From positions 1-64,000 of the forward strand of contig JAQGBZ010000235.1 of the NCBI GenBank assembly GCA_034687125.1: a stretch of 64,000 nt of DNA, written 5' to 3'. Position numbers and translations under genes: made by a program. A model generated the notes under the pieces. That model worked only from the letters and a program-made list of their open reading frames with translations. It had not been told where the DNA came from and searched no databases. This stretch comes from Neelides folsomi (taxonomy: Eukaryota > Arthropoda > Collembola > Neelipleona > Neelidae). Shown here piece after piece: positions 4,132 to 41,337 of this stretch (positions are counted from its first letter, which is position 1; every line of letters begins with the position of its first letter).

Positions 4132-7100
4132 TTACAAATTACTTAAAAGCAAGTTTACAATTATTTCATGATTTTCATTCATTGCAATATCAAGAGGAGT
4201 TAAACCATCTGTATTCTTTTCATCAACTCTTGCTCCTTTATTCAGAAGCAGCCCTACAACCTCAGCATGCCCACCCCTTGTTGCAAGATGTAATGGAGTG
4301 TAACCATTTATTTCCTTAATATTAACAATGGCTCCTTTTTTTAAAAGCAATTTAACAATTTTTAAAAATCCTTTACTTGAAGCATAATGTAATGAAGTAA
4401 GATTGCCCTTGCTTAAAGCATTTACGTCTGCTCCTTTATCCAGAAGCAGCCCTACAACCTCAGCATGCCCACCACTTGTTGCAAGATGCAAGGGAGTGGA
4501 ATATATATTATTTTTAATATTAATTGTAGCCCCCTTTTTTAAAAGTAATTCTACAACATTTGCGTGTCCCGTGGCCGAAGCTGAATGCAAAGGAGTCCAA
4601 TTTTCCATTCCAAAACCATCAATTTCTGCTCCTTGTAATAAAAGTAGTTCCACTATATCTACAGATCCTTTCATTGAAGCAAAAAGTAGAGGAGTGTGAA
4701 ACTGAAATTCAAAAACATCAACAGATGCGCCTCTCTCCAAAAGTAATTTCACAATTCCAACGTGTCCATGAGCAGCAGCAAAATGTAAAGACGTCATGAA
4801 ATCATTATTGTAAGAGTTAATTTTTGCACCTTTTTGCAAAAGTGATTTTACAACTTCTGGATGTCCTTTATTTGAGGCAAAATGCAAAGGAGTTGTATTA
4901 TTTTTGTCCCGAGCTTCGAAGTTTGCTCCTTTATCTAAAAGCAACTTGACAATCTCCACAAATCCTTTACTTGAAGCTAAATGTAGCGGAGTGGAAGCGT
5001 CTTGATTTAAATCATCAACTTTGGCCCCCTTTTCCAAAAGCAACTTCACAATTTCTACGTGACCTCTACTTGACGCCGTATGCAATGGAGTCATATGAAG
5101 TAAATTGTCATCATCAATGCTTGCGCCTTTTTCTAAAAGAATTTCCACAATTTCTTCGTACCCGTAAAATGAGGCAGCCTGAAGCGGAGTTTCGTTAAGA
5201 AAACAAACGTTTACGTTGTCTGTTATTTCGACAATTAATTTAACAATTTCTGCATTTCCATATGAGGAGGCAAAAAATAAAGGTTTGTCTAAAAACTCCC
5301 TTTCACTCTTTACACATTCATCCAGTTTCAAAGTGTTACTTTGAAGCATTAATTTTGCAATGTCAATTGATTCATTTTTCACCGCAATATCCAAAGGAGT
5401 ATCTTTCATAAAGACGTTTAATTTTGCTCCTTTTTCAATGAAGAACTTGACAATTTCAATTAATTCTAATTCAGTCGCAATGTGCAGTAGATTGTTGTTT
5501 GGATGGTCGAAAACAATTTGAATGTTATAGAGATTTAAAATTTCGATAAACCGACTTTCGTTGAATTTATCTTCTAATTCCGTTTTGAAGTATGGATTAT
5601 TTTTAAAAACTTTTTCAATCATTTCATTTCTCAACCGATCGTCTGGATTCTTGGGTTTCCATTTATTCTAATGAATTTAAAACAATAATTTATTAATAAT
5701 TAATAAAAAAATATAATAATTATTTAAAAATTATGAAAAATAATATATTTATTTACTGGAATTCTTTCAACAACGTCAATCCATTTTAATTCCTTTTCTA
5801 ATATTTCAATTAATATAAAATGCAATGAAATTCCTGGTTTCCTCTCATTTGTCCAGTGTAGAATCAAATCATGATATAAATCGAAAATTTGAACTCCCTG
5901 ATCTTCAACTTGATGCTTCTTCAATGTTTCATTGAATAGCTTTGAAGAAAGCAAACATAAATCTTCAATTTTCTTCCTAGCACGTGACAATTCTAAACTG
6001 AAGTATAAAATCCAATCTAAAAATTAAATAAAAATTTTGTTTATGTATTTTTTCTATTTAATTAAAAGACAACAATTTAATGAAAATTTTTAATTTGCGA
6101 TTGTAATAAATAATTGCGGATTACCTTTTCTTTCCAAAGTCCGCTGTATATTGTAAGCATCAACATAAGAAGTTAAAATCTCTTTATTTTTGGTCAAATT
6201 TTCCCGGTTTTCATCTTCAAGCCACCTTGATTCAAAATAATACGAACGCCCCAAATTGTATCTTGTGGATAAACTATATTCAGAGTTTCCCAAAGTTTCC
6301 TCCCAATGAAAATTCGGTATTTGTCGGTGTTGAAAAGCAAGAAGATAGTTTATTTCCAAAATCAATTCATGATTTTCATTCAAAATATTTTTGAAAATTT
6401 TTAAACTTTCATTTAAATTTTTTACGATATTTTCACGATTTTGACAAGACAATTCAAAATATTTCAGAGCATCAATAATTGAATTACAGTTTGGATTTTG
6501 AACGAAAGTTGTCTTTGTTTTTTTAAGTTCATTTAACAATTTGCTTGAACTACTTAGATTGTACATGTCCTCTTTAATTTTAAATGGATTGGGCAAATCA
6601 ATTTTTTTTCCATTCCATTCACAATCTTCAACTCCATTCAATTTGTCGAGGTGAATATTTAAAGATTGATAGTGAGGGAACAAATGAGATTTTAAAATCA
6701 AATCATTTTTACTTATTCTTCCAATAGGATAGCAATCGAAAATCCTTTTATAAGCTTTCTGAACAACTTCTTTTGGAGTGTTTCCCGGATACCTTAAAAA
6801 TAATTAAAATATTAATATAAATAACATAAAAATATACAAATATAATAAACAATTAACATGATAAATATCAAAAATATAAATTATATTAAAATTTATTTTG
6901 TAATTAGGATAAAGTTTTAAATAAAGATTTACATTATTTTGTTTACGTCTTTTTCAGTTTTGTAATTTCTAGTAATTTCAAAAATTAAAGACTCTTGAAT
7001 AAGACGATGGATAGACAGTAAATTTTCATCTTCGAGAGTAATGAGGGAATATTCATTGAGAATTCCCAAAACTTCTTTGTTAAATAAATTTCTAGGGATT

Positions 7101-8906
7101 TTGTTTGGAAGTAGAAACGCACATTGAATCAATGCATCAAATGCGCTTTGATTTGCTACATGAATTTCTTTTACAGAAATTAAAAGATTTTCAAATACAG
7201 GCATGTCACAGTTTTCAAATTGATTTTCCGTCACTTTGATTGGAGTTCGAATAAATTCCAATTTCTTTTCATTAAATTTACTAATGCTGATTCTTAAATT
7301 TTTAATATATGCTGCAGCGAGTGAAATTGCGAGCGGATGTAACTCGGGTTGATTTCCAAATGTCTTAAGAACTTCGGTTTTTCCTTCTTCGATCTTTAAT
7401 TTTAACAAGTATTCTTTAACATCTTTCTGATCAAATAAACCTAATTCAATTTTTTCTCCAACTTCAAAGAAACGATTCCTTGAAGTTATCAAAATTTTAC
7501 CTCCCTTTGAAGGCATAAAATTTTCAATTGATTCTTGGTTCTTGGCATTGTCAAATACAATTAGCCAACCATTTTCTGTGTTTTCGAACCAGTTCACAAT
7601 TTTTGTAATGTTCATTTCTCCTTCTTTCATGTTTGTATATTCTTTTCCAAATTTGAGGAATTCCTTTTCGAGCAAGTTCACTTTTTGATCCGAATTGAAC
7701 CAAACAATTCTTTTGTATTTTGTTTTGTTTCTCTCAATGTATTCAGAAATCAATAAAGTTTTTCCAACTCCGCCCATTCCAACATAGACAAGAACATTTT
7801 CCTGTTCAAACTTTCGTTCGATTGTAGTCAAATAGTCTTCTCTTCCTGTGAAGTTATTAAGCTGGATGTTTCTAACGTAATTAAACAAAATAGCTTCTTT
7901 TGAAGCGCACGAGTCCAATATTTCATTGGCCACTCCATTCCATTCCAATTTTGTCAATATTTCTCCTAACGACTTTCCGATATTTTTTGGAACTGTTTTT
8001 TTGTTCCACTCATCAATTGCGTTGTAATATTTGATACTGGTTTCCTTAGTTTCATTTTCTTCATATTTTTCCGGTATATTTAATTTATAATAGAAAAGTT
8101 CGACATCACTTCTCTTAAAATAAGATTTGGCTAAAATTTCAGCCCAATTAAAGAAAGCATCAGCTAAAAAAGTAAAAAAAAATTAACAATTAGTACAAAT
8201 GAAATTTTTGTAAAACAATTTTGTTTTTGAAAATAATATTAAAATTTAATTAATTAGATCAATTTATTTATATATTTCCTTTTAGCTTGTACTTGTTTTA
8301 GCTATGACGTGAAATATGTTTAAGAATTACGAAAAGATACAATCAAATGGAATATAGAAAAGGTTTAAATTAAGGAGGCAAGTATAACCCCTCATTGAAG
8401 GTTTTAAAATTTATGCCATAGATAGCTCAATTAATAATAGCGTTTAAAAATAAAATTACAAATATATAAAATAAAATTTATATATAATATTGTTCAAATA
8501 GGTGATAATTAAAATTATTGTTCGTTAAGTAGTAAGTTTATACACTTGACCACTTGTTATAAAGATATCAAGTTTAGTATTCATATTACTACAATTTAGT
8601 TTCTCATTGAAATTATTCCATATTTTATCGACATATAGTAAAAGGGAAGATTAACCATAATAATTTTTATAATTATGACAAGAATGTAAATAAGACTTTT
8701 ATATTTCGTCTTGTTTTATAGGTGTGGACTTGGTATGATTTTAAAAAGTAGTTTTTGAATGCTTTAGGGAAGGTTTTCATGTAGAAGTTTGCGCATTAAA
8801 ATAAGAATAGATTTGGAATATAAATTATCAATTAGTTTAATAGCTTACTATTATAAGTATTTAAATAATGTAATTGAATTGAATAAAATATAATAATACC
8901 GTTCAT
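4132..8906 (-). CDS. NLR-like receptor A: Death-like, NB-ARC, helical and ankyrin regions
   Basis: Deduced coding exons are 8906-8900 (tentative ATG exon of 7 nt), 8163-6933, 6792-6125, 6016-5757 and 5667-4132, giving about 1233 aa with phases 1, 2, 1, 0. Residues about 4-90 resemble a Death-fold domain (NWAEILAKSY, then YNAIDEW). The NB-ARC core shows a P-loop GMGGVGKT near 131-138, Walker B WLIVFDN near 205, ITSRNR near 230, HPLAI near 280 and an MHD-like IHRLIQ near 390. A helical stretch with LFPHYQSLNI follows, as in NB-ARC-TPR proteins. Fourteen diverged ankyrin repeats fill about 780-1233. It should be an ATP-regulated sensor. Its ligand is unknown and an immune role is inferred from architecture. 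The first exon rests only on phase agreement with the gene at 33227. Confidence 0.85.
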
Positions 8907-9520
8907 TGTTAGGTCCAATATTTATATTGAAAAGAAAATTATATTAAATTTAAATGTGATAATTAGATAATCATTAACTGTGATGGTCAGTTATTTTAAT
9001 AATTATTTTAAGCGTTTAGGTTAAGTTGAAGAATATAAATTCAAGATGAGGATTCTGTGGCTTGAGATTGAATATAAAATTAGGAATGGCGTTTTAACCT
9101 TGAAGAATCGAAGCTTTAAGTGTCTGGAAAAGGAAACCAGATTGAACCGACGTAGGAAGAGAAGGCGATAACCGATAACGACAAAAAACATGAAGGCAAT
9201 ATCATTGATGTATATAATATATAATGTACCAAGAAGAATGTAAATGTAAGATATTAAATTGAATCATTTAACAATTTATTTTTAAATAAACATAAATATA
9301 ACACTTATGTATGTAAGGCTTATATATATATTTGTATAGAAATACGAATACATCTGACCCTGAGTGAATTAAACCGTGGTGGAATTTTTATTAACTCTAT
9401 TTTTACCCTTACAGTATTAAATGATCAAATGAAAGACACCACTACACTAGAATATTTTCAATTTCTAACCTTATATTAATTTTGCAATGTCTGCGTCTTA
9501 TGTAGCAATTAAAATATATC
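8164..9520. other. Intron 1 of receptor A and AT-rich upstream DNA
   Basis: Between the Death-like exon and the tentative ATG exon (8900-8906) the sequence is AT-rich and repeat-poor. Beyond it, up to 9520, there is a 41-codon frame at 9046-9171 on the plus strand ending in a run of Arg and Lys (NRRRKRRR). It has no family match and I do not call it a gene. The promoter of receptor A should lie here, but no core element is obvious. Confidence 0.4.
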
Positions 9521-9627
9521 CCCTAAAACTTGCCGAGTGTAAGGGCGACCAATCATTAGAATCAAAAACATTAATTTTAGCTCCATTTTGTAAAAGTAAT
9601 TTCACAATTGCAGTTTTATTTGATCAA
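9521..9627 (-). pseudogene. Ankyrin-repeat relic of the NLR-like family
   Basis: Minus-strand translation gives one ankyrin unit, IVKLLLQNGAKINVFDSND followed by WSPLHSASFRG. It is close to the repeats of the two full NLR-like genes. Stops lie on either side and no NB-ARC remnant was seen. It shows that the family once had another copy, or a longer one, here upstream of receptor A. Confidence 0.75.
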
Positions 9628-9990
9628 TCCAGAGAAAAATGAGTTTTAATGTAAAAAATTGATTTTAATTAATGATTTTTGAATGAATAAATAACTCTAT
9701 TTATTTAACTATTTTATATTACTTTATACATAAGTACATCAAAAAAGAGTACATATATGTATACATACTACTGATATAGTACAATAATAGATATGTATAT
9801 TTATAGTACTTATAGTATCTTTATATTGATTATATAATGAATAGTATACTGTCACATAATCAGCTTTACATAATTAAAATAACATACATCACTAATTAAT
9901 TAATAATTGAGTTAATTGTGTTGGATTTAGTTGTACTATCAAAGAAAAGGTTAAGAAAGTAAATGGTTTTGGTTCTTTGGTTGGATTGAA

Positions 9991-10179
9991 GTGGGGTGTC
10001 GCATTCTCAATTGCTTGCTCAATATTTTAAATAAAATAAATGCTGAGTATTTTTTAAGTCGTCATAGTCATAATATTTATAATAAGAATCTTCAGTATCC
10101 CGCAAGAAACAATCGGAAAGCTCGAAATGACAATGTTTATTATAACTATAAGGGCCAAGCTCCTATAGTCAAGTCTTAA
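9991..10179 (+). pseudogene. Possible C-terminal scrap of a non-LTR retrotransposon
   Basis: A 62-codon frame (CRILNCLLNILNKINAEY, then SRHSHNIYNKNLQYPARNNR) has the His/Asn/Tyr/Arg-rich look of the end of a LINE reverse transcriptase protein. The match is only by feel: no catalytic motif is present and no poly-A tail is clear. It could equally be a chance frame. Confidence 0.2.
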
Positions 10180-13360: not shown

Positions 13361-16300
13361 CTATTGAACCCAAGTGGCAGGGACCCAAAGAGGTTCGTTG
13401 TCCACTTTCTTGATGATTTTGAGAAGTCGTTCGAACGCTTTTGGAAGTTCGTCGTTGACGAGAATTTCATCAAAGAGATGTCCATACAAATATTCAATCC
13501 GTTCAGAGCTTTTGAGAATCTCGTGAAACTCCTCGTCCTAAACACAAACAAACAAAGTCAAACCACGGCAAAATTCAAATCCAAGAGTGGTAAAAAACAG
13601 ATTTTAAATACGTGGAAATGAGTGCGCATCGACCGAATTTTAGGGAAAAGTTACGTTGAAAGTTAGAATTAATTAATTAGTGTGTGAATTTGGGTTTTCA
13701 TTTAAAACTTTCGTTCAACTCTTCTCAACTCTCTTAGTTTTTTTATTAGCTCAACAATTAAGAGATTAATTAGCGGAAAAGGGGTGAGCTTAAAGCTCGC
13801 GAATATACATTTATATTTTTTAACAAATAACCAAATACTCCAGCTCAATTCAATCCCAAAATATTTAATTTTAACGTAACATTAAACATCCAAAACAAAA
13901 CAAACATTCAAATAACCCATAATATATTCAATAATCCCACTCAATATTTAACATAAAAAAACGCATATAAAGATACACCATTTAATATCCAATTGTAGCT
14001 AATTTTTGTATCATTAGTACAATGCGATAATCCACAAAGAAACATTTATACATTAATTGAGAAAGAATATGATAGCAATAGAGTAAAATAGTTAGTAATT
14101 ATGATCATCATCATAATAATTATTAAAAATATAAAATAGCTAAATAAATTACATAAAAAACAAACTAATAAATTAAACAAATTCTTATAAATGATTTAAA
14201 ATAAAATTTTTAAACAAATCAAAATTCCCGCATTCGCTTAATTCAAATATTTAAAAGGGTAGTATTTAAATTGCTGATAAAATATTCACATTTAAAATAT
14301 ATTTATTTAGAACAGTATTTGACCAGAAAAGGGATAGATATTTAGAAGAATAGAATTGAAAAGAATAGAAGAATAGAATTTTAGATAGAATAGGAAGCGT
14401 CACAAGAATAATTTTAATTAGTACATAAAATAAATAAATCTTTAGTGATTGGTAAGGGAGAGACTAAAAAAAGCGAAACGAGAGAATTGAGGAGAGGGGT
14501 TTGAAAAGGGGGAACGTACGTTGAAAGCGCGGGAGTTGGTCTCATCAAAGGTAGACTTGGCGAAAGCCTTATGCCGCGAGCACTTGAGTACCTCGAACGG
14601 CGGCGGCTTCACGTACACGATGTACGGCTTGAACTCCGCCGTCCGGAGCATCTTCAGAGCTTGAGAGTGAGGATTGAGAACTGCACAAAGACCGGACTGC
14701 ACGATGCTCCGCACATTCTCGCTGCTCGTCCCGTACAAATTACCCTTGTACTCCCCGAACTCGATAAACTTCCCACCGGCGATCTCTTCCTCCATACGTT
14801 CACGACTCACAAAGTGATACTCCTTACCCTTAACCTCACCCGCCCTCGGAGGTCGACTCGTGTCTAAAATTTTAAAAAAATTCGCAGATTTTAGTTAAAT
14901 ATCGTAGTTTTTAGTAAAATTGCAGTTTTTTGGAAAATCGCAGTTTTTAGCAAAATCGCAGCTTTTAGCAATATTTAGTTTTTTATATAATTTTTAAATG
15001 GCACCTTATTTCAGTATTATTGTAGTAATTGAAATTATATTAGCTTTTGTATAATTGTGAATTTAAATAGATAGAATAAAATTAATTTAGAAATTGTATA
15101 ATATTTAGCCGCGTATGCCCTTAGGGTTCCATTGCAGTATCAATAGTGTAAGGAATTGAAAAAAACTTACATGGAATTGTTGTTTTGTACTTGGTGGGGT
15201 CGAGGTCAAGAATCCTCCTTTTGAGTTCATTTCGGCCGACGCCTGGTGGGCCGATGAGGACGATTGGGCGGTAGAAATTGGGTCGAGGGTAGAGTTTGGA
15301 AACTTCCTCGTAGGTCGCAACTTCGTCCCGATCATAATCCTCGTTCTCTGCCAATTCATATGCCACTTTTTTAGCGCCCATCGACCCGCACCCGCCGTCC
15401 CCACAACCCCCATTCACCCCTAACGCACACAAAATTAAAATCATTTCCAACTCTCACACTTTAGCTTGCCCTTTTTCTTAAATTATAAACCGCTAAAAGT
15501 CCAGCTACAAATCCATCATCGTTTCAGTATTGATCTCACAGAAAAACGATTTATCAAGATTTAAAGTTTCACAAGTTAAAGATAAGTGCGAAAACATGTA
15601 AAAGAAACACACACGCACACGCACGATTTAGTACACACATAAGCATACCTATCTTAAATTATTGATAAATAATTTATCTAAATTTTCATTTAATCCATAT
15701 AAGGAATAAAAAATTAAATATTTAAAGCCAGTACTTATAGGTATATTAATATTTATAATGCTATATGTAATCGTATTAAGTTTAATCCAAATGTGTTAAC
15801 ATTTGACCAAAAGTTAAAAGCATTTGAAAGGATTTTCTGAGAAATGGAACGGCCAAGATGTGAAGCAATAAAAAATATAAATTGAAGCAATTGTGAGTTT
15901 TGTGAGAGGAAATCAATAGGAAGGATATTGATGTCAGGAGTCAAATGTTAAATAATAAAAAGAAAGATGAAAAACGTAAGAAGATGAAATTTGATATGAA
16001 CGTGAAAGATCCTTATTATTATTGGAAGCACAAAAGAGAGATCGTATAAAAACGTTCTCAAATGATGTCTTCATACATCACAGAAAACCATTTTAGAATC
16101 CCAATTTCTTGAAAAATCCATTTAAACACGGATTTTACTTTTTCTTTCTTATTTGTATGATTCTTTTAAACCGTGCAAAAACTTACTTACATATTACATT
16201 TAGTTGAAAAATTGTTAAATTCACATACAAATTGATGTAGGTATGTAATGCATGTAATTATAGTTAAGACAATAGTATGTACTTGACTCAAGTTTGAATT

Positions 16301-19300: not shown

Positions 19301-21763
19301 ACATGACATGAACAGAAAATAATAAAAAATGAGTAAAATTGATTAAAATCGTATTTGATAATTTTTATACTTTTTGCCGTCCAGAGTCGGCTGGAACAAG
19401 TTTGAAGGTGATGGTTCCTTCAGACGCTTTGAGAATGTTCAGAACATCGTCGGGTGATTTCCCCTCCACTGACAACCCATTGACCTCCACAACTTCGTCC
19501 CCTGGATAAATGAGACCTGACCGGTCGGCTGCTCCGCCGTGCATTACACGGGCAATTGTGATCTTTCCGCTCTCTTCGTCCTTTTTGATCGTTGCTCCCT
19601 AAGCAAATAAAATATTTTAGTTTAAAACGCTCAACTTCAATTGTAAATCATGTTAACGCATTAATTGAACCACACACAAGACAATTAACATTTAACACTC
19701 TTGGGTTAAAAACACTAATTTAAAACACTAGTTAAAAACACTATTTAATAACACTATTTTAAAACACTAATTAAAAATATTAATTAAAACACAAAATCAT
19801 CCAAAAATTAATACAATTAAGTCATACCAAATCTTAATTAAGTCAGAACTCATTAACTTATAAACCAACAATCAAAATGCCTTAAAAATAAATTAACTTT
19901 AACTTATATAACTATTTATCCAATTTTACGCATAAAGATGAAATTTAACTAACTACAATCCAAAGTAGTGCAAAGAGCAATTAAGCTCAAAGGGTTTAGT
20001 TATTAGACAAAATGTATTGAATTGACTACAATTATAATTTAAAAGTAAATTTTCATGCAGAATGTTTAATTAAAAAACTACGTTACAAAAATCAAATTAA
20101 ATATTTAAAGAATAGATTAAATATTTAAGAAATGGACTAAATATTTAAGGAATGGATTAAATAGATAAAAAATTGATCCATTGACAGGATCAATTGTTAT
20201 GATAGAATTTAGACGAAAGTGTAAAAGATGAAACCAACAATAAAAAAGCAATATATTGAGAGTGAATTGAAGCAGAGAGAAGCGTTAAGCCTTACCACGA
20301 TCGGCTCAGCTGTTTTCGCCCCATCCTAAAGATTCCCAAAAGAAGAAAAGCTTTTTTAATAACAAGGTGAAAATTGAAAAAGAGAAGATTTGAACATCCC
20401 AATTTACACAAAGCACATTTGGTACATTCAGTTTGCACATCAACTCCAAACTCGACCTTTTTCATCGTTAAGTCATTTGACCCATTGACCCTTGATCCCA
20501 TAATAGTCAAAAGACACAGAATTTAAATACAATTTAACTATAATTTAAACTAAGAAAGTTTAAAGTAAGGAGCAGAAGATAAATATTTGAAATATATGAA
20601 TAGTTTGAAGAGAAAGAGAAATGACCAAGTCTTTGGGTCTTTGAAGTATAAAGTTGAATATAATTAAAAATAAATTTATAATTAAAATAAAATCTTGTAA
20701 AATATAACAGGTGAAGAAGAACTTCTGGGGATTAAATTATTATGTATTTATATTTTACCAAGGTTATTAATTACAGTGATTAAAGTTCAATTTAACACAG
20801 TTTACATTTAGAAATTAAATTGATGAATTGACATTAGAATAGAATGTTTGATTTTTAATTAAATTAGGATAATTAAATAAGTTTATTAAATAGGATAATT
20901 TTAGTAATAGATTTATTAATTTCCTTACAAGTGGCTCGTTGGATTTTACGAGCTGAACAATTTTGATGGTTTCTTCCTGATCGTCCGGGTCCGGGTATTC
21001 GGACGGGAGAAGTTCGGGAAGTTTGGGCAAATAGTCCTTCTGAGCGACGATGTCGTGGGAGTAAAAGAGCCCTTGGATGTGCGGGCTTTGGAGGAGGTCG
21101 AACAGATCGGTCGCATCGGGATTTTCGTCCGTTGCGTGTGGCCCAAGGAGATCCAAAACATCTTCGGAGACCTCGACCGAGTTTGAGAGCAGCGGATGAA
21201 ATCTCTCGTCCTTTTCCAAAATGGTGTTGTGGACGCGGACGAGGGCGTGGAGCTCTCGAGATTGAAGCAAATCACTCAAAAAACCGATTTCCTCATCGCA
21301 CCCTGACGGAAGGGTCGGTCGGGATTCTTCCAATGTCACCAGTAATTTTGAAAGCGCTAAAAATTAAAATCATTAAAATTAAAATTTAAACCGCAAATGC
21401 ATTTAATATTCAAAACATTAACACCGATTAAAACTAAATACCAATGCAGTTGTAAATACAACACTAATACAGAATATATTTAACCATTTAACTGTATTGT
21501 ATATTTAATTAATTGCAATATTCAAATTATTCACTTAATTAGAAAAATTATTAACGGAAAAACTATTAAATATTTAAATATAAAAGTATTGATGACTGTG
21601 CGATCCAATGGGAGAAAAGAATTGATTTTAATCATAATTAATTAAAGGAGCCGAGCGGGAGATTCAAAGTTAAAATGGAATTAAATAATTTAAAGTTGTT
21701 TAGCGGATGAGTGAGTTTGTTGAAAAGGGTTTGACCTGGGTCCCAGCGCCCGGTGTCCAACAT
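13361..21763 (-). CDS. metro: Metro/MPP7-like MAGUK scaffold (L27-PDZ-SH3-GK)
   Basis: Coding exons are 21763-21736, 21356-20929, (optional 20325-20296), 19598-19371, 18895-18759, 18371-18259, 15419-15171, 14863-14520 and 13537-13361. They give 567 aa, or 577 with the optional exon, and all phases agree; human MPP7 is about 576 aa. Exon 2 carries the paired L27 region ([20 protein letters not shown]). The PDZ has [11 protein letters not shown] and [20 protein letters not shown]. The SH3 spans [13 protein letters not shown] to [11 protein letters not shown]. The hook reads [14 protein letters not shown], and the GK P-loop is [15 protein letters not shown], ending [11 protein letters not shown]. 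MAGUKs of this type hold polarity and synaptic complexes at the membrane. MPP3/MPP7/Metro fits better than Stardust/PALS1 because of the PDZ sequence. The start is the first ATG in the frame of exon 1. Confidence 0.9.
14882..14972. repeat. Short tandem repeat of an ATCGCAGTTTTTAGCAAA-like unit
   Basis: Four to five imperfect copies of a roughly 18-20 bp unit (TCGCAGATTTTAGTTAA, TTGCAGTTTTTTGGAAAA, TCGCAGTTTTTAGCAAAA, TCGCAGCTTTTAGC). They lie in the metro intron just upstream, in gene direction, of the acceptor of the second GK exon. Confidence 0.7.
16600..17082 (+). CDS. Small secreted Cys-rich protein 1, nested in a metro intron
   Basis: Two exons are visible: 16600-16683 and 16850-17082, joined in phase 1. 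The first encodes a hydrophobic leader ending GCA ([16 protein letters not shown]), so cleavage before [11 protein letters not shown] is likely. The second encodes a domain with eight Cys: CNC, IC, EC, TC, YC, DC and AC contexts, with the motif [12 protein letters not shown] near the end. The exon with the initiator ATG was not found. The paralogue at 17502 shares the Cys pattern and the EP-ND-G motif. I do not recognise the family. A secreted, disulphide-stabilised peptide is likely; defence, inhibitor or structural roles are all possible. Confidence 0.65.
17502..17958 (+). CDS. Small secreted Cys-rich protein 2, paralogue of the gene 0.6 kb upstream
   Basis: Exons are about 17502-17654 and 17765-17958, again joined in phase 1. 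The leader ([17 protein letters not shown]) is hydrophobic and is followed by [15 protein letters not shown]. The second exon has seven Cys: ICYC, GDC, FEC, TNC, NGC and DLC contexts, with [11 protein letters not shown] matching the partner. The partner's Cys in TGEC is absent here. The leader frame is closed by a TAA near 17500, with no ATG or acceptor seen between, so the 5' end is either a missed exon or damaged. Sequence divergence is high, so the duplication is old. Confidence 0.55.
18570..18672. repeat. Three tandem copies of a roughly 34-bp unit in a metro intron
   Basis: The unit reads about TTGTATGAAAATTGAGGGAA plus a short purine and T-rich tail. Three imperfect copies lie in the intron between the two SH3 exons of metro. 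Confidence 0.75.
19690..19795. repeat. Tandem array of an AAAACACTAATT-like unit
   Basis: Six to seven imperfect copies of a 14-16 bp unit (GTTAAAAACACTAATTT, AAAACACTAGTTAAAAAC and variants) lie in the intron upstream of the PDZ exon of metro. Confidence 0.7.
20096..20166. repeat. Three tandem 20-22 bp units
   Basis: AAATATTTAAAGAATAGATT, AAATATTTAAGAAATGGACT and AAATATTTAAGGAATGGATT follow one another in the intron just downstream, in gene direction, of the optional PDZ microexon. Confidence 0.8.
20296..20325 (-). other. Candidate 30-nt alternative exon in the PDZ ligand-binding loop of metro
   Basis: On the minus strand a clean acceptor (TTCTTTAG) precedes 30 open bases encoding [10 protein letters not shown], followed by a strong donor (GTAAGG). 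It lies between the exon ending in SNEPL and the exon starting GATIKKDE, both in phase 0, so inclusion keeps the frame. Inclusion would replace the context of the carboxylate-binding loop, from EPL-GATI to EPIV-GATI. Expression is not known. Confidence 0.6.
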
Positions 21764-22849: not shown

Positions 22850-24585
22850 ATGATGGACGGCAACGGAATGGGTGACATTGTGATCCAATCCCGAGAACCT
22901 CAATTCACAACCTTAAAATGTCCCAAATGCTCTTCAACATGCGAATTCTTCACTCCCGCAAAGATGACAGTCCTCAAAGTCAAAGTGACCTGTCACAAAT
23001 GCAGCAATCAAATCCCCTACGATCCCTCTGCTCCAAAAACCGCAACGATTCCCTCAACGACTTCTTCTTCCAACGATCGTCCCGCGAGCTCCTCAATGAC
23101 CTCAGAACGAAATAAATTCAAAATCGGCTCGGACGAAACTCCTCTGTCGCTCGAATATTACGAAGTTCTCGGAGTTCCCTCAACAGCCACCACGGCCGAA
23201 ATCAAAAAGAAATATTACGCCTTGTCCATGAAATTCCACCCGGACAAAAATGATTCCGCAGAGGCTGAGGAAAAATTTAAAAAGATCTCTGAAGCTTATC
23301 AAGTTTTGTCCGACCCGGACCTTCGACGAAAATACAATGAGTTTGGGCCGGATAGAGGTCAACCTGAGGGCGGGTTCATGAACCCTGAGGAATTCTTCCA
23401 AAGACAGTTCGGTGGGGAAAGGTTCGTGGACATTATAGGGGAACTAGGAATTGCGAAACATTTCAAAGATGTCATGGTTTCCCAGGCGGGAAATGAAGAA
23501 GGGGAAGAGGGAAGTCCAAAAGAGGAGAAAACTTACGAGGAGAAATTGAAGGAATACGAAGAGAGGAAAAAAGAAAGAGACAAAAGAGTCGAGAAGTTGG
23601 CGGAGAATTTGGTGGTTAAAATGGCGCCTTATGTGACCACGGGGAATGTGGCGGAGTTTAAGGCAGCCATTAACCACGAAACGGAGGATTTGCGGGTGCA
23701 GAGCTTTGGGGTTCAACTGTTGCAGAGCATCGGGTTCATTTATTATCTCAAGGCTAATGAATATCTGGACAAGGACGAATTCTTGGGACTTCCAAGCTTC
23801 TTTCATAAAATACGAATGAAAGGACATGCGGTAATTTTCAAAAATTTACAATATTTGACACAAAATCATAATTTTCGTTATTTAAAAATTCGAAATTTAA
23901 TAATTTTCGCAAAAATCCAAAATTTTTGTAATTTTTGCCCCAAATATTCATTAATTCAATATTTAATAATTTTCACCAATAATCTAAAACCTTTAGTTCC
24001 GAACATTCAAATGTTTACGATTTTCCTCCAAAACCTTAATTTTGTATTTTATAGTTAAAATAAAAAATTTTCTTTTTTAATTTTTCATTTCAGATCAAAT
24101 TTCTTTTAAGTTTTTACATTCAGTGAAAATTTTGAGCACGCAATATTACTAAACTCCGATATTTTAAGTTGCATTTAAATTTTTTTAACTTTGTTTTGTG
24201 GACATTCTGAATTCTGGAATTTTAATTGCTATTCAAATTTTGAATTTGCAATTAATATGCTAATATTCAATAATTTAATTAACAGGTGAGCGAGACATTT
24301 TCTACAGTCAAATCTGCTGTTGATGTTCACAAGAGCTTCATCGAGCTCCAGGAAGCTGAGAAACGCGGGGAAATGACAGAAGAAGAGAAAAGTCGCAGGG
24401 AAGAAGCCGCAGCGAGAAAGGGATTGGCTGCTTTATGGCAAGGATCGAAGTTGGAAGTTGAGAGCGTTTTGAGATCTGTCTGCGACAAAGTTTGCGCCGA
24501 TCCTGTAATCGACAAAGTGACGTTGAGACGAAGAGCCGAAGCTCTCAAAATCATCGGAGAAATCTACAAGAATGTTAAGGAGTAA
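22850..24585 (+). CDS. DnaJ-X domain cochaperone (Caj1/Djp1-like)
   Basis: Two coding exons, 22850-23830 and 24286-24585, join in phase 0 and give 426 aa. Residues about 24-60 form a four-Cys ribbon (CPKC...CHKC). A J domain follows at about 100-165 with the HPD motif in KFHPDKND. The rest matches the DnaJ-X region of fungal and plant cochaperones: [16 protein letters not shown], the charged [31 protein letters not shown] and [11 protein letters not shown]. Such proteins stimulate Hsp70 ATPase activity; yeast Djp1 aids peroxisomal import and Caj1 is membrane-associated. Reading on past the donor at 23831 gives only low-complexity sequence, which supports the intron. Confidence 0.9.
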
Positions 24586-28339: not shown

Positions 28340-29897
28340 TAAGCGAAAAGGTTCGGAATCCTGCAAAAGCGTAAGACGAAAGTGAGAAAGTTGATTTGTT
28401 CCTTTCTCGCCGCTATAGTGGAAGGAAGGACCGGGCCAGCCAAATTCCCTGTGACAATTCAATGGAATGCAACGCAAAGCCGAGCATACTTAAACAAACT
28501 TAAAATGACAGCTTTATTTTATGTTTATTAAGATACTAATTAATGAGATGCCAATATTTAAAAAATTGTTTCATTATAAAGCATACACAAATTAAAAATG
28601 GAGTTCACGCAAGTGGAATTAAGAAGCGTAATTAGATTTTTAAGTGTCAAAGGCTTTGGAAGTAGGCAAATTCACAGACAATTAATTGAGGTTTACAGAA
28701 AAAATTGTATTGGTTTGAGAACGGTTGGGCATTGGGTTAAAAAGTGGAGTTACAAGTTTGTCAAATGTTCGTCAAACTGGTCGTCCAAAAACAATTTCGT
28801 CTTCAGAAATTGTCAAACAAGTTGACCAATTAATTAGGTCAAATCGTCGACTCAATGAACGTGGCGACGACGCTTTCAATAAAAAAATCTTCAGCATGGA
28901 GACTTTTCCATAATGAATTATTGTTTCGAATAGCGTGCGCTCGTTGGGTTCCAAAACAACTTACTCAAGATATGAAAGACTAGAGTTGCAAAATGCCAAT
29001 CGCTGCTCAAATTTTATGATGATGGACTAAATTTTTTGGAGAGAATTGTGACAGGAGACGAAACATGGATCCATTACTATTGTCCTGAGACAAAAAAAGC
29101 TTCCATGTAATAGAAAACAAAAAGTTCACCCCGTTGTGTGAAATTTAAAATGAGATAACTTTTATTTTATTAAATATTTAATTTTATAATAATTTTATAA
29201 TTAACTAATTATTTTTATTTATACCTAATTTTGTTAGGTTATATACCTAACCAAATTAAGCATCCAAATCGGCCGGAAAAATAATGCTGTCTTTTGGGAC
29301 ATGAAAGGGGTATTAATGATGAATTTTAGATCAAAGGGAACCATTAAAACCGAAAATTATTACCCGCTTCTTGAAAATCAGGTCAGACCTGATATTGTTG
29401 CAAAAAGAAAAAGAGCGTTGAAAATGGGAGTACTGCTGCAGCATGAAAATACTCGTCCACATACATCACATTTGACGCAGATGACCATTAAGAAACTTCG
29501 ATTCCATTGATCATCCTTCCTATAGTCCTGATTTGGCCCCTTCAGATTTTCACATTTTTGGGCCTTTGGGAAAAAAACATTTAGGTGAAAAGAAATTTAA
29601 CACTGACCAAGAGGTTTGTGATGCCGTTCGATATTGGCCAATAAATTTTTATTCTAATGGGATTAAAAAATTAGTAAAGCATTGGAAAAAATGTATCCAA
29701 CTTGGTGGCGAATGTGTGGAATAAGTTAATTGAATAAAGATCTCTAAAGTTTTCATGCACTATTTTGCATTGAATTGAATTTATATAGGGAATTTGGCTG
29801 GCTCGGCCCTTCCTTCCACTATAGCGGCGAGATAGGAACAAAACAACTTTTTCATTTTTGTCTTACACTCTTGCTTGATTTCGAACCCGTTCGATTA
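28340..29897 (+). mobile_element. Mariner-family transposon with about 130-bp terminal inverted repeats
   Basis: The left end (about 28340-28480) and the reverse complement of the right end (about 29765-29897) match over roughly 130 bp, including TCGCCGCTATAGTGGAAGGA and GCCAGCCAAATTCCCT. TA is present at both outer limits, as expected for mariner insertion. The body encodes a broken mariner transposase. An AT-rich patch near 29145-29260 splits the coding part and may be a later insertion. Inverted ends this long are unusual for mariner, where about 30 bp is typical. Confidence 0.9.
28598..29724 (+). pseudogene. Decayed mariner transposase
   Basis: Reading across several frames gives an N-terminal helix-turn-helix (VIRFLSVKGFGSRQIHRQL), a linker with SNVRQTGRPKT, the first catalytic block VTGDETWIHYYCPETK, the second block LLQHENTRPHTS and the third block HPSYSPDLAPSDFHIFGP. 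The second block has Glu where the usual motif has Asp (HDNARP). Several frameshifts and stops break the frame, so it is not functional. Confidence 0.9.
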
Positions 29898-30957: not shown

Positions 30958-31352
30958 ATATAGGCGCATGAAAATTTGCTGGAGAAAAATCATCAAAAGC
31001 AAAATCTGTGAATATTTGAATATTCATGTGGCTATAAATCAGATATATACAAACACATTAAAGTATATACTGGAGAAAAACAAGAAAGAATTCACCCAAC
31101 ACAATCTACCTGACATAGTCCACCCAACACAGTCCACCCGACACAATCCACAACACTTTTGTAAATCTCAAAACATTTCTTACTCAAATAAGGTTCCATT
31201 TATCCGACACAGAAAATCCCAATTAGATTTCTTACTCACCCAACAAGTTCTCTAGGAGAAACTTTCTTACTCTGCACCCGATAGATTTCTTACTCATACG
31301 ACATTTGATAGATTTATTTTTTACCAAACCTATTTACTAAACCACTTATACC

Positions 31353-33226: not shown

Positions 33227-36200
33227 ATGGTAGATTCAATCAAAGGTAATTTTTTAACTTTATCATTATAAAATTATTATTTAAAGCAGAATAATAAATA
33301 CCATTTAACATTAAATAAATATTATAAACAAATAATACGCGTTAAAATAAGTAATTCAATGAAATAATTATAATTTTGTAATAAATTTACAATATGATAA
33401 TTCATTTTATAAATAAGCTTTATTTGTTAAAAAAGTTTCTCTTAATTGTGTGATTTGGTATGATTTGAATTATGGTTGATTTTCAGAAGAGATCAATAAT
33501 TGGGCTAGAATTATAGCTAAAAAACATAATAAAAATAAAGATGTTGAAAAATTTTACTTTGAGTTGGATTTAATGGACATATATGAAGCTAATAAAAAAA
33601 GTTATAGTGAAGTAGCAATTTATAATGCAATTTATACGTTGTACAAACAAAATAATCCCAAAAATATTAAAATGTCTTTAATTTCAATTTTGAGAAAATC
33701 GGGTTGGAATTTAGTGGCCGATGAAATTTCTCAAATTTCAAAAAATGTTCAAACAAAACTTTGGAATGTTCCTGAAAAATTATTAAATTTTACTGGAAGA
33801 GAAAAGTATTTAATTGAAATTGATAAATTACTTCAACAAGATACAAAACATGTTCTTGTTTCTGCTTATGTTGGAATGGGTGGGATTGGAAAAACTTCTT
33901 TGATTGCTGAATACATTTGGAGAAACTCAGAAAAATACAAAAGAATTGTTTGGTTCAATGCAGAAAAAGAGAATTTGCTTAATAAAGAATTTCTTAAATT
34001 TGGAAAAGAGCAAAAAATAATCAAAGAAAATGAGGATATTTCAAAAATAGTCAATTGGTTTGAAAACACTGAAAATGGATGGTTAATTGTATTTGACAAC
34101 GTTGAAAATTACAAATATCTAAAAAAATATTTGCCTAAAAATGGAGGAAAAATTTTATTAACATCTAGAAATCCCTTTTTTGAAAACGCAATTACAATTG
34201 AACTTTGCAATTTTGAAATTGAAGATGTAAAAAAATACTTACATAAAATGATTCCAAAAGAAGTTGAAAAGTCAACTGAAGAAGAAATTGAGCAATTTGC
34301 AAAATTACTTGAATTTCATCCTCTCGCCATTTCACAGGCAACCTCATATATAAAACGTCTGGGAATCAGCATAAAGGAATATATTAACAATTATGTAAAT
34401 GAATTAGAAATAATTCAAATTTCCATTACAAAAAATGTGTCGGAGGAAAATTTATTTTTGGAATTGTACATACCGGTTTTAACAAATCTGACAATTTCAA
34501 TACGACAAATCTACGATCAAAATGAGGAAGCGTTTGAATCATTAAATCAATGTGCGTATTTGCTGCCGAATAAAATTCCAAGAATTTTATTTAATAAAAA
34601 TGTTTTGGCAATTCTACGGGAATATTCGTTAATTAACTATGATGATGATGATAATTTCATTTCTATGCATCGTCTTGTTCAACAATCGTTGATTTACAAA
34701 ATTGCCGGAAATTATACAACTAACGAAATTGAAATGTAATTAATAAAATTTATGAAATTTTTTTAATTATAATTTTGTAAACCGTTGTTTAATATATACA
34801 AAATTATAAAATACAAATACTCTAATATACAAAATGTAATTTTTGCTAAAATGCAATATAGGTATCCAGAAGATATTTCCAAAAAAGTTCTTAGAAAGGC
34901 TTATGAATCGATCGATAATTGTTATCCATTGGGAAGATTGACTGAAGAGAATTTAATTTTAAAATCTTATTTACTGCCACACTATTACTCACTGAATATT
35001 CAAAACGAGAGAATTAATGGAGTTAAATTTCAAGAAATCGACCTTCCTATACCTTTTGAAAGGAAACTCCACAATTTATATATACTAAATAACTTTATAA
35101 AAATTTCACAAAACAAAACAAATTCAAATAAAAACCTCATTGAAGAATCAGAAAATACAATTAAACTTGGACTTAAATATTTTGAAAGATCTTGTAAATA
35201 TAAGGACGATTTTAAAAATACAATCAAGGATTTAAAAAATTGTCTAACCGTTTTCCAAAATACTTTAAAAAATGATCACGAATTAATTAAGGAAATAAAA
35301 TATCTACTGGGCTTTCAATACCTTCAGAAATTGAAATCTGATGACAACGAAATTTATAAAATTGAAGCAGAATATTTTGAAAGTAAAATTGAAAATAGTT
35401 TAATTACAAGAAATAATTTGGCATGTTCGTATAATTTTGATATATTTGCTAATCCAAAAGAATTGGATAAGCGAAATGAAATGTTGGTTTCGTATATAAA
35501 TGCTTACAATATTCAGAAAAGATTGTTACAAAAAGGTGATAGCAATCAAAATTATTTATTAATTTACATTAATTTACAAAAACTTAAATGAAATGTATCA
35601 TTGAATAAGATATTAATAATTTAATTATGTTTGATTTATAGATTGGATCTTAATCATATGTCATTATTTGGTAACATTTTACAATACTGCTGATGACATT
35701 TATTTATTATATTCAACATTATTTGATCAAGATTTGAAGAAAAATAATATTGAGAATTTTAATTTTGGTAATTTATACTATGAAATAATTAACAAATGGA
35801 CAAATGAAAGAGATACTGGAATTTCATTACACTTTTTATTAATCGAAATATTGCGGCAAGATTTAAAATGGACAAAAATCCTTAAAAACATTCCGGTAAA
35901 TATGAATATATTTGGAAAGCGAAAAAGTAACGAGATTATGTGTTTATTGAAATGTGAATAATTTTATTAACTATTACTACAACTACAACATTGCAATTTG
36001 CAACAGATTTTAACTATTAAAACTAATTTCTGTTATGCTCCCTGCAATTTGTCCATTGTTGTTGTAAAGTTTCGAATCAACGTCTGCATAAGATCAAGAG
36101 TCCAATAGCTTAACCAATAGGTCCCTTCAGGGATGGGCAAGGCGGGTAAAACTCAAACTGGTATAACTAAATAAAACGGTTAAAACTGGGCGGCCTCCGA

Positions 36201-39200
36201 CTGGTGTGGGAGCATAAAGTGTGACAATTCACCCATTTTTCCCAAATGTGTGATAATTCAACAAAACGTGTGACGCTTAGTTGCAGCATCTAGCCTGATG
36301 TCATATTATATGTATCAACTTTTCATAGAATACTCAACATTGGCAGGTAATATACATGATATATATGACATCAGGGCAGATGCTGCAACAAAGCGTCACA
36401 CGTTTTGTTGAATTATCACACATTTGGAAAAATTGGGTGAATTGTCACACTTTTTGCTGCTGTCACACATTTGGTTAAATGAGTAAAACTCAATTTTCTC
36501 AATTTTCCCTTAGAATGATTTTATTTATTTAAAATTATAGTCCCACAGATCCCCAATTGTTATAAGAAGCTCAAATAAGCGATATTTGATGCATATTTAA
36601 ATATTTAAAAATTAATTGATTTGACTGATTTAGGTTTGGGTCATTTTCATTTTTCTCATTCTCATAATTTTCATTGGCCATTTGAGACAGAAAATGAATT
36701 TCACTACTCCTGTTCCTGTTTATAAAAACATAGAAAGTACTAAAACTACAATTTTTAATTAAACTTGATACAGCTCAACCTCAGTAAAGTAAACATTGAT
36801 TTTTCATTGTCAATATTAGGAAGAAAAATTTTATCGTCATAATCTAAGAAGATATAATAAATTTATAAAAATTATTGAAGCAGTTGTCTCTTTATTAAAG
36901 CAATTGTCTCAAAAATTTTACTTGAAATCAAAGCTTTTAATTTCTACCTATTTAGTTAGCTTTAAGAACTTACTTATTCAAATCTACAATGTATTTCCAT
37001 ATTCCAATTAATACAAAAAAAATTAAATTGTAATTGTATTGATTTAAATAACGGAGAATATTAACATATTGATTAATTTAATGGAGAAATCGCCAAACAA
37101 TGCTTAAAGTGCTAATAATTGCTAGGTGCACATACATTTAAATGCCCTACCATCTCTTCCAGGCTTTAGTGCACACTACAAGCAAAAGCGAGTTTTAACC
37201 GATTGGATCGGTTTCTTCCGGTTAAAACAGGTCGAAGAGTTTTACCCGCGGGTTTTTTCCATCCTGGTGTCTCTTTATTCTGAAGTTTGTCGTCTGATTG
37301 AAATATTCTACCATTCAATTTCTTCTTCATTGGCTAAAATAGATCGTAATCATAAGGAAAAATATTGAAGGAATTTGCTGGATGTGGTCGTTCTTCAATC
37401 CCAAGACATTGCAGTGTTCCTAGCAAGCTCAAGTGGAGCTTGATTGGAATAAACATCGGGATTTACTTTTATATTCGCTGAATATTTTTTAGAAAATGAA
37501 AGATATATACATTTTATAGTAAAAGAAAATTTGGTGCATATTTTTTCTGTTTTAATAGTGTGAGACTGCAATCCTCCCTGAAATATACTAACACATTTCC
37601 TCGTTACTTTTGCACTTTTCACTTATCTTCGTTAATCCTAAATGATTATATTTTAGTTAATGTTAATGCGACAATGACTTTAGCAAACATGGTTACCAAA
37701 GAAGACTCCTAGCGTTGATTCGAGATTTGAAATGATTGACCAAGTATTCAAAGACCATCCAGAATTAAAAATTGAATTTATGAACCAACAAAAAGCTTTT
37801 GATGAAAAATATTTCATTGAAACATTGATACATAATGAAATCCAACTTGATTTTGATGACACGCTTTTACATATTGCAACCGAAATGGAATTTTGCAAAA
37901 TTGTAAAATATTTTATTGAAAATGGAGCAAATTTAAGACATTTGGATAAGGGTAATTTCACACCATTGAAAATAGCTGTAAAAAATGAATCAGATAGAAT
38001 GGTAAAATTAATATTAGGATGCGATGCTATGGCTGAAATTATTAAGACTGAAGAAGCATTTTTAAATAAATCATTATATTTAGCCTCAAAAACAGGAAAT
38101 ATAGAAATTGTAAATATCCTTTTGGAAAATGTGAAAAATGTTAATTTTTTTATTAATAATGAGACTCTTTTACATAGAACTTCAAAGTTTGGTTATGAAC
38201 ATATTGTAAAATTACTTATATTAAAGGGAGCAAAAATTAACGTTTTAGATAAAAATAATTCGACTCCGTTACATATGGCGTCGACTTATGGACATTTAGA
38301 AATTGTAAGGTTACTTTTAAAAAAAAGAGCTTCAATTAATGTTTTAAATATAGATAATTGGACACCTTTACATTTGGCGTCGGCACATGGACATTTAGAA
38401 ATTGTAAGGTTACTTTTAGAAAAAGGAGCTTCAATTGATGTTTTAAATAAATATAATATGACACCTTTACATTTGGCTACTGATCATGGACATTTAGAAA
38501 ATGTAAGGTTACTATTAGAAAAAGAAGCTTCAATTGATGCTTTAAATAATTATAATTGGACACCTTTACATTTGGCGTCGACATATGGACATTTAAAAAT
38601 TGTAAGGTTACTCTTAGAAAAAGGTGCTTCAATTAATGTATTAAATAAAGATAATTGGACACCTTTACATTATGCTTTGAGAAATGGACATTTAGAAATT
38701 CTAAGATTACTTTTAGAAAAAGGAGCTTTAATTGATGTTTTAAATATAAATAATTTGAAAATTTTACATTTTGCTTCTAGAAATGGACATTTAGAAATTA
38801 TAAAGTTACTTTTAGAAAAAGAAGCTTCAATTGATGTTTTAGATATAGATAATTTGACACCTTTACATTTGGCGGCAGAAGAAGGACATTTAGAAATTGT
38901 AAGGTTACTTTTAGGAAAAGGAGCTTCAATTGATGTTTTAAATATAGATAATTTGACACCTTTACATTTGGCGGCAGAAGAAGGACATTTAGAAATTGTA
39001 AGGTTACTTTTAGGAAAAGGAGCTTCAATTGATGTTTTAAATATAGATAATATGACACCTTTACATGTGGCTACTAAACGAGGACATTTAGAAATTGTAA
39101 AGTTACTTTTAGAAAGAGGAGCTTCAATTGATATTTTAAATAAAAATAATTGTACACCTTTACATTTTGCGACAGAAAATGGACATTTAGAAATTATAAG

Positions 39201-41337
39201 GTTACTTTTAGAAAAAGGAGCTTCAATTGTTGTTTTAAGTAAAAATAATTTGACACCATTACATTTTGCTTCTAGAAATGGACATTTAGAAATTATAAAG
39301 TTACTTTTAGAAAAAGGAGCTTCAATTGATGTTTTAGATATAGATAATTTGACACCTTTACATTTGGCGGCAGAAGAAGGACATTTAGAAATTGTAAGGT
39401 TACTTTTAGGAAAAGGAGCTTCAATTGATATTTTAAATATAAATAATTGGACACCTTTACATTTGGCGTCGAAAAAAGGACATTTAGAAATTATAAGGTT
39501 ACTTTTAGAAAAAGGAGCTTCAATTGATGTTTTAAATATAGATAATATCACACCTTTACATTTTGTGTCAGACAATGGACATTTAGAAATTGTAAGGTTA
39601 CTATTAGAAAAAGGAGCTTTAATTGATGCTTTAAATAAAAATAATTGGACACCTTTACATTTGGCGTCAGAAAATGGACATTTAGAAAACGTTAGGTTAC
39701 TTTTAGAAAAAGGAGCTTCTATTGATGTTTTAAATAAAGATAATATGACACCTTTGCATTTGGCGTCGTTATTTGGACATTTAAATATTATAAGGTTACT
39801 ATTAGAAAAAGAAGCTTCAATTGATATTTTAAATATAAATAATTGGACACCTTTACATTTGGCGTCAGAAAATGGACATTTAGAAAACGTAAGGTTACTT
39901 TTAGAAAAAGGAGCTTCAATTGATGTTTTAAATATAGATAATTGGACACCTTTACATTTGGCGTCGGCACATGGACATTTAGAAATTGTAAGGTTACTTT
40001 TAGAAAAAGGAGCTTCAATTGATGTTTTAAATAATTATAATTGGACACCTTTACATTTGGCGTCAGAAAATGGACATTTAGAAAATGTAAGGTCACTTTT
40101 AGAAAAAGGAGCTTCAATTGATGTTTTAAATATAGATAATGTGACACCTTTACATTTGGCGTCGGCATATGGACATTTAGAAATTGTAAGGTTACTTTTA
40201 CAAAAATTAGCTTCAATTGATGTTTTAAATATATATAATATAACACCTTTACATTTAGCTACTGAACATGGACATTTAGAAATTGTGAAGTTACTTTTAG
40301 AAAAAGGAGCTTTAATTGATATTTTAAATATAGATAATTGGACACCTTTACATTTGGCGTCGGCATATGGACATTTGGAAATTGTAAGGTTACTTTTAGA
40401 AAAATTAGCTTCAATTGATGTTTTAAATAAATATAATTGGACACCTTTACATTTGGCGTCTGGAGATGCACATTTAGAAATTGTAAGATTACTTTTAGAA
40501 AAAGGAGCTTCAATTAATGTTTTAAATATACATAATTGGACACCATTACATTTGGCGTCAGAAAATGGACATTTAGAAATTGTAAGGTTACTTTTAGAAA
40601 AAGGAGCGTTAATTGATGTTTTAAATGAAGATGATTTGACACCTTTATATTTAGGGGCGAGAAATGGACATTTAAAAATTGTAAGGTTAATTTTAGAAAA
40701 AGAAACTCCAGTTGATTTTTTACAAAAATCTATTTGGACACTTTTACACTTGGCGTCGAGATATAGACATTTAGAAGTTGTAAGGTTACTTTTAGAAAAA
40801 GGAGCTTCAATTGATATTTTACATGAAGATATTTGGAAACCTTTACTTTTGGTGTGGGAAGATGGACATCTAGAAATTGTAAGATTATTTTTAGGAAAAG
40901 GAGCTTCAATTGAAGTTTTAAATAAAGATAATTGGACACCTTTACATTTTGCTTCAAGCAATGGACATTTAAAAATTGTAAGGTTACTTTTAGAAAAAAG
41001 AGCTTCAATTGATGTTTTAAATAAAGATAATTGCACACCTTTACATTTTGCTTCAAGAAATGGACATTTAGAAATTGTAAGGTTACTTTTAGAAAAAGGA
41101 GCTTCAATTGATGTTTTAAATAAAGATAATTGGACACCTTTACATTTTGCGTCGAGATATGGATATTTAGAAATTGTAAGGTTACTTTTAGAAAAAGGAG
41201 CTTCAATTGGTGTTTTAAATAAAAATAATTCTACTTCTTTACAATTAGCGTCATTAAATAAACATTTTGAAATCAAAAAATTACTTAAAGAAAAAGAAGC
41301 AAAAATTAAATTTCAAGAGTATTGTATAATTATATAA
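33227..41337 (+). CDS. NLR-like receptor B: Death-like, NB-ARC, helical region and very long ankyrin array
   Basis: Coding exons 33227-33245, 33487-34735, 34862-35535, 35642-35895 and 37684-41337 give 1949 aa with phases 1, 2, 1, 0, exactly as in receptor A. The Death-like region spans about 7-95 (INNWARIIAKKHNK; then YNAIYTLYKQ). NB-ARC has the P-loop GMGGIGKT near 136-143, WLIVFDN, LLTSRN, HPLAI and an MHD-like MHRLVQ. The helical region opens with YPEDISKKVLRKAYES and LLPHYYSLNI. Four diverged ankyrin units match the first four of receptor A. They are followed by 31 units of 33 residues. It is probably an ATP-switched sensor with a solenoid recognition arm; the ligand is unknown. Intron 4 holds nested MITEs. 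Confidence 0.9.
36128..37266. mobile_element. Inverted-repeat element in intron 4 of receptor B
   Basis: CAGGGATGGGCAAGGCGGGT followed by AAAACTC at the left is matched, inverted, at the right (GAGTTTTACCCGCGGG to CCATCCTG). A second, inner pair has GGTTAAAAC near 36178 and GTTTTAACCG near 37192. The flanks (GGTCCCTT and GTGTCTCT) are only loosely alike, so a target duplication is uncertain. The interior is AT-rich, lacks a transposase and contains the smaller MITE at 36211-36458. Confidence 0.6.
36211..36458. mobile_element. 248-bp MITE with about 95-bp inverted arms, nested in the larger element
   Basis: The left arm (AGCATAAAGTGTGACAATTC onward, through ATTCAACAAAACGTGTGACG to GATGTCATAT) and the reverse complement of the right arm match nearly throughout. 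Only about 55 bp lies between them. A transcript would form a long near-perfect hairpin inside intron 4 of receptor B. Confidence 0.85.
38263..41331 (+). repeat. 31 tandem 99-bp ankyrin units with higher-order duplication
   Basis: Anchoring on the ACT codon of TPLH, units recur every 99 bp from 38263 to 41233 with no insertion or deletion. Typical units read TPLHLASENGHLEIVRLLLE then KGASIDVLNKDNW. Units at 38845 and 38944 are almost identical in DNA. A block beginning GCTTCTAGAAATGG at 38773 recurs at 39268, exactly five units later, with the following units also matching. This indicates recent expansion by unequal exchange or conversion in steps of whole repeats. Confidence 0.95.

Follow-up and report, generated by a model that had tools for sequence, protein, structure and literature searches.

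The window analysed here, the first 64,000 bases of the 98.7-kb contig C235 in the 75.1-Mb, 840-contig assembly of the springtail Neelides folsomi, carries two related genes on opposite strands, A and B, whose predicted products share an NLR-style layout: an N-terminal Death-like domain (DLD) that probably has a death fold, an NB-ARC core and a TPR-like region, then a diverged second copy of the DLD and, last, ankyrin repeats. All gene structures, for A and B as for their paralogues, are models from sequence made without RNA; the domain content of the exons is directly established, whereas we infer their splicing and, outside the window, the joins between exons. A preliminary description of the window had announced two full genes, which holds for B, where all five exons were found on the forward strand: a 19-nucleotide exon with the start codon, ending in phase 1 at a splice donor (33227-33245); exon 2 (33487-34735), with the DLD at about 33489-33731, the NB-ARC stretch recognised by Pfam at 33819-34175 and a helical/winged-helix part containing the HRLVQ motif, as read from Pfam, an AF2 model, VIA-align and alignments; exon 3, the TPR-like helical region (34862-35535); exon 4, the second DLD (35642-35895); and exon 5 (37684-41337), an ankyrin array of 31 Pfam Ank stretches whose repeats resemble one another and recur with a period of 99 nucleotides. 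The introns have phases 1, 2, 1 and 0 and the model runs through 1949 stop-free codons, 732 of them before the ankyrin exon. Gene A, on the reverse strand, falls short of full, since its tiny first exon could not be located (two weak candidates lie within 4.5 kb), but from the phase-1 acceptor of exon 2 (6933-8163, DLD and NB-ARC, Pfam stretch 7472-7807) its phases agree with those of B through exon 3 (6125-6792, TPR-like), exon 4 (5757-6016, second DLD, by comparison with the exon-4 profile) and exon 5 (4132-5667, 13 Pfam Ank stretches). The two ankyrin relics noted nearby were located by tblastn upstream of A (9504-9614, reverse strand) and downstream of B (42116-42374, forward strand).

The NB-ARC core scores above the Pfam profile cut-off of 23.5 bits in both genes (32.2 bits in B, 27.4 in A), and the NB-ARC motifs already read by eye are present in both, most of their residues being kept when A and B are aligned with eight paralogues in 10 rows (G132, G134, G135, G137, K138, D206, H280, P281 and L399 invariant, R230 and R398 nearly so). 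These positions belong to the P-loop, Walker B, sensor 1, HPLA and HRL motifs, which follow one another in A and B in the order of STAND ATPases. The exon 2 model has an NB-ARC fold with its winged-helix part, and its nearest solved fold by VIA-align is Apaf-1, over rows that span the NB-ARC region and hardly test the DLD. In exon 3, TPR_12 matches weakly in three of seven paralogue sequences and in gene A (E 0.01) and not in gene B itself; DUF7779 stays under its cut-off (E 4e-4 for gene B and 0.015 for gene A). Pfam finds no NACHT or LRR family in any exon of A or B, exon 4 included, for whose poor model Foldseek gave no match reaching E 0.001, and PADLOC matched no family to three receptor exons. 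The springtail proteins have the three-part layout of animal NLRs (signalling domain, STAND ATPase, repeat sensor) but with NB-ARC in place of NACHT and without LRR.

A and B belong to a dispersed family, as had been proposed. Exon 2 of gene B has 28 genomic matches at E 0.001 or better, among 34 candidates scored, which were sorted by hand into 19 NB-ARC loci and a remainder with the DLD alone; the NB-ARC exon is open in ten, and an eleventh open one, at C641, carries a long insert. The four-exon ankyrin layout recurs in five further genes (C824, C662, C517, C305 and C458), with splice sites and phases found in all of them save the exon-2 acceptor of C662, and in broken form at C449 and C369. 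The ratio of non-synonymous to synonymous substitution (dN/dS) is 0.26-0.50 in 15 exon comparisons from four paralogue pairs (the end of C305 exon 4 being taken as 4689) and also in six further DLD/NB-ARC rows; the core is under purifying selection. A chance origin of the A/B layout is excluded, because five more genes share exon layout and phases and four paralogue pairs have these dN/dS values.

The DLD is a domain of some 85 residues in which three positions are nearly invariant across 24 rows (alignment A2, which leaves out C449, C641, C734, C178 and C501). Its commonest Pfam match is Death (6/24 members, with Death_3 in 1/24; best E 0.001), and hhalign joins it to five Death domains from the same genome (probability 87.8, E 3.3e-6, 77 columns), the controls giving 0.2% (against the unrelated helical exon 3) and 0.05. 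The exon-4 profile is in turn joined to the DLD profile (probability 96.7, E 4.6e-10), and its model has four helices (confidence score, pLDDT, 58.8). We therefore call the domain Death-like, with a death fold as the probable structure on sequence grounds.

Searches of the genome with the DLD also reach copies outside the receptors, just upstream of other domains on the same strand. Two precede caspase exons in which Peptidase_C14 is over cut-off (C832, 71 bits, next to an NB-ARC-DM9 gene, and C604, 56 bits), with STHG/NACRG and NTHG/NSCRG, respectively, as the caspase His and Cys motifs; a further caspase copy (42 bits) lies at L039 (C768). Two precede kinase exons which, as single-exon queries, resemble eIF2alpha kinases: among solved structures, and by small margins over other kinases, C769 appears nearest EIF2AK1/PERK (EIF2AK1 46.2, EIF2AK3 45.6, Chk2 45.4 bits) and C818 nearest PKR/GCN2 (PKR 37.0, GCN2 36.1, MAPK6 35.8 bits). 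In PADLOC the C769 kinase exon matches 32 bacterial kinase models, which we do not take as a sign of kinship. Ankyrins follow the DLD at C365, C358, C536 and one of two C694 copies; C358 also looked by eye like a dead caspase, for which Pfam gave no match, and was excluded from the count. At C166 (L030) the DLD precedes a hydrophobic, apparently membrane-spanning stretch and then a weak TPR, which would make it a possible membrane-bound DLD protein; a weak DLD at C501 (L037; E 0.3) likewise precedes a hydrophobic, apparently membrane-spanning stretch. At C765 and C536 the DLD is preceded by a canonical Death domain (34 and 33 bits), and at C786 a weaker one (19 bits, under cut-off) follows it. 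Candidate acceptors are consistent with an exon that has travelled: in the stretch from 11 bases before to 10 bases after the start of the DLD, a range picked after inspecting the list, a phase-1 AG occurs at 21 of 25 loci, and 22 AGs are in phase 1 against five in other phases, the trace that a shuffled DLD exon would be expected to leave.

The other end of the receptors appears to be exchangeable. Four paralogues (C341, C173, C641 and C832) have a possible phase-1 donor at the end of exon 3, and a phase-1 acceptor some 70-140 bases on opens an in-frame exon at the same phase-1 junction that exon 4 uses in the ankyrin genes; no exon-4 or ankyrin match was seen at these loci. A second DM9 exon passes the cut-off of 26.2 bits at all four (36.4, 39.8, 61.8 and 40.6 bits), and the first gave 24.2 bits or no match in the two scanned. 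DM9 is shared with oyster CgDM9CP-1, which binds mannose and microbes, and with mosquito PRS1, which responds to Plasmodium (PMC5712788), but in the springtail it is the predicted C-terminus of an NB-ARC receptor.

The ankyrin arrays, for their part, vary where a ligand would be expected to touch them. Repeat positions 2, 3, 5, 13, 14 and 33, those randomised in designed ankyrin proteins, vary more than random sets of six in 7/7 arrays (P 0.0041 or less; repeat pattern loosened; C536, with 5 repeats, too short, and C305, C458 and C824 outside the set), something expected of many ankyrins on variability alone. The ratio of non-synonymous to synonymous change among repeats (pN/pS) is more specific: in gene B it reaches 2.42 (bootstrap 1.48-5.83) at predicted binding positions vs 0.72 (0.56-0.93) elsewhere, in C662 1.91 (1.04-4.45) vs 0.72, and in the remaining five arrays 0.84-1.19 with intervals that include 1, all in arrays from DLD genes, with repeats mutually non-independent and no outside control array. 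Between paralogues, dN/dS over the whole ankyrin exon is 0.35-0.44.

We regard it as reasonably likely that these genes encode an NLR-like springtail sensor family that signals through DLD contacts to caspases and kinases, which is how the overall reading of the preliminary description, upheld here, would be extended. In this scheme (i) the swappable C-terminus, an ankyrin array or, in four paralogues, a DM9 lectin-like domain, would bind a foreign or altered-self ligand, (ii) NB-ARC would pass from a closed ADP to an open ATP form and the receptor would oligomerise, (iii) the clustered N-terminal DLDs would recruit DLD effectors through homotypic contact, either directly or via proteins with both Death and DLD (C765, C536, perhaps C786), (iv) the effectors would be the DLD-caspases (C832, C604) and the DLD-kinases resembling eIF2alpha kinases (C769, C818), and (v) the outcome would be cell death and/or translation arrest. 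The NLR-like family sits within a wider network of death-type domains. A more ambitious version, which we offer tentatively and at somewhat less than even chances, is that a whole inflammasome-like network has been built on one shuffled death-type domain, with a bacterial-type NB-ARC-TPR core, ankyrin and DM9 ends whose contact surface is diversifying, DD-DLD adaptors, and caspase and PKR-like arms independent of vertebrate interferon genes.

Several observations weigh against this sensor scheme. For the domain itself, no DLD member was seen over the Pfam Death cut-off of 22.6 bits (bits shown: 14.6, 18.2 and 13.4), the exon 2 model has six helices in residues 2-87 with a pLDDT of only about 50-65, and the exon-4 profile compared directly with the Death set gives 1%. 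Among the partners, the DLD at C604 is an assignment by eye, missing from both DLD search lists, the DLD matches of C786 and C501 are weak (E about 0.3; that of C818 is 0.003), the kinase assignments have small margins, and the second C694 copy shows no ankyrins. At the sensor end, donors are weak at two of the four DM9 loci (C173 and C641), and a Met at the start of the DM9 exon at three of the four, C641 being the one that lacks it, means that DM9 could be a separate gene at those three; among the ankyrins, the whole pN/pS interval exceeds 1 in only two of seven arrays, the others being near 1. Part of the family, finally, is decaying, several copies being broken.

The first rival is that these genes are developmental or stress cell-death machinery, an enlarged apoptosome-like family responding to internal damage, with no antimicrobial role, which we consider unlikely. 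An apoptosome does combine NB-ARC, a death fold and a caspase, and Apaf-1 is the closest solved fold to the core, but another NB-ARC gene, C267, stands apart in the genome; it has a stronger Pfam NB-ARC score and is from this presumed to be the Apaf-1 homologue (a scan of one late piece showed no WD40). By the exon-2 profile, C267 comes last of 131 sequences with 6 bits, against 239 bits for P0001 and a median of 136, in a set biased by construction (130 database proteins gathered with the family as query, plus C267 as two exon pieces); the gap between the family and C267 is large despite that bias. Against solved sequences the same profile matched plant NLRs and bacterial AfsR, and neither Apaf-1 nor CED-4 at E 0.1 or better. 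There is also a separate caspase, a candidate initiator caspase at L040 (C17:154500-157500; 82.8 bits) with a weak upstream CARD match (13.7 bits, under cut-off). Compared with the Apaf-1/Dark/CED-4 apoptosome, the family differs in its ankyrins and DM9 domains, with no WD40 among the domains found, in its many copies, in its kinases and in an NB-ARC sequence that is bacterial NB-ARC-TPR-like, unlike that of C267; the many copies, the exchange of recognition domains, DM9 among them, and the surplus of change on ankyrin surfaces speak against this rival.

Self/non-self or conflict genes, comparable to fungal heterokaryon incompatibility or to the control of symbionts or mobile elements, would be a rival of slightly lower probability. 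The mutual likeness of the gene B ankyrin repeats, as if whole units change, suits it, as do the broken copies, which are common, and the bacterial NB-ARC-TPR type of the core. Among the best 120 of 1229 protein matches to the family, and the 10 of a second search, named ones were bacterial, archaeal and once fungal (Microsporum), with no named animal; the remainder carried no name, and relatives in other springtails may lie beyond these listings. The nearest NB-ARC proteins among the matches listed are bacterial NB-ARC-DUF7779-TPR proteins (FxSxx-COOH system TPR proteins; 23-32% identity, TPR families in most), from which the springtail genes differ by eukaryotic introns, DLDs, ankyrins and DM9. 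Independently of this rival, a bacterial-type origin of the core is plausible, and springtails have a record of lateral gene transfer, with 809 such genes in Folsomia candida (PMC5490193). No link to a conflict partner was seen, and the DM9 version points instead to glycan recognition. No analogue of hyphal fusion is known in animals.

About as improbable is that the receptors begin with a helical adaptor unrelated to the death fold, making this a convergent NLR-like system without a death fold. The weak Pfam Death matches and the low-confidence model favour it, and the DLD profile searched against solved structures found no death domain, its seven matches with E up to 10, the best at 0.012, being taken as chance. 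Against this stand the hhalign match at 87.8% over 77 columns to Death domains of this genome, for which the negative control was clean, Death being the most frequent Pfam match of DLD members, and partners typical of death-fold proteins. That the family is a decaying set of laterally acquired genes without present function is very improbable and already disfavoured, since the stops or frame changes in seven copies (C449, C369, C699, C542, C765, C499 and C773) and the ankyrin relics are set against ten open exon-2 copies, conserved splice sites and purifying selection in all 15 exon comparisons.

The neighbours of the genes look like those of any animal. Guanylate kinase (105 bits) and L27 (63 bits) exons at 14442-14894 and 20815-21363, both on the reverse strand, are probably parts of a single membrane-scaffold (MAGUK) gene; a DnaJ/DnaJ-X gene lies at 22829-24058 (forward strand) and a gamma-glutamyltranspeptidase exon at 44412-44993 (reverse strand). 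Because A and B are flanked by genes ordinary for an animal, contamination is unlikely as their source, and the genome, first described as arthropod-like, is that of a springtail: its mitochondrial contig C742 has the order I-Q-M-ND2-W-C-Y-COX1-L2-COX2-K-D, with a COX1 80-82% identical to Collembola, the best named matches, which rank below a single unnamed protein at 93%. Three inverted repeats (84-94% identity) resemble small DNA transposons: 28340-29897 (133-nucleotide arms, spacing 1.3 kb), a 96-nucleotide pair within intron 4 of gene B (36211-36458) and 45247-46524 (109-nucleotide arms, spacing 1.1 kb). Around the paralogues, a Tc1-like transposase fragment lies beside C173 (L017:4121-4351, reverse strand; HTH_Tnp_Tc3_2 28.8 bits, under cut-off), an open reading frame resembling a Tc1-like fragment, with no Pfam match, beside C662 (L010:8237-8488), and a broken exon-3 relic directly upstream of that intact receptor (L010:79-737). 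Two short Cys-rich open reading frames of similar pattern downstream of C517 (L011:6176-6484 and 9036-9323) looked like defensins by eye and were rejected as such (Pfam Defensin E 0.61 for one, none for the other).

Among the close parallels are the Death/TRADD-N expansions of sponge and oyster, in which Death-like adaptors are found with ankyrins, STAND NTPases and kinases (PMC8195603); the springtail system differs in its adaptor (DLD; no TRADD-N search was made), arthropod host, NB-ARC receptors and DM9 sensors. A literature search for NB-ARC with springtail found no paper, in a corpus outside which most subscription papers lie, so that a prior description is possible, and no system or protein joining DM9, NLR, death domain and caspase was found among titles and the opening lines of abstracts. 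Accounts of arthropod immunity usually leave out NLR-type receptors, and a cell-death defence of this kind is not known from fruit flies.

In conclusion, if this reading is true, the NLR-type architecture has been built again (or kept) in arthropods, here in a hexapod, and Neelides folsomi, an animal with a small genome, would allow sensors to be matched to their adaptors and effectors from sequence, offering a testable case of a bacterial-type NB-ARC joining an animal signalling network.

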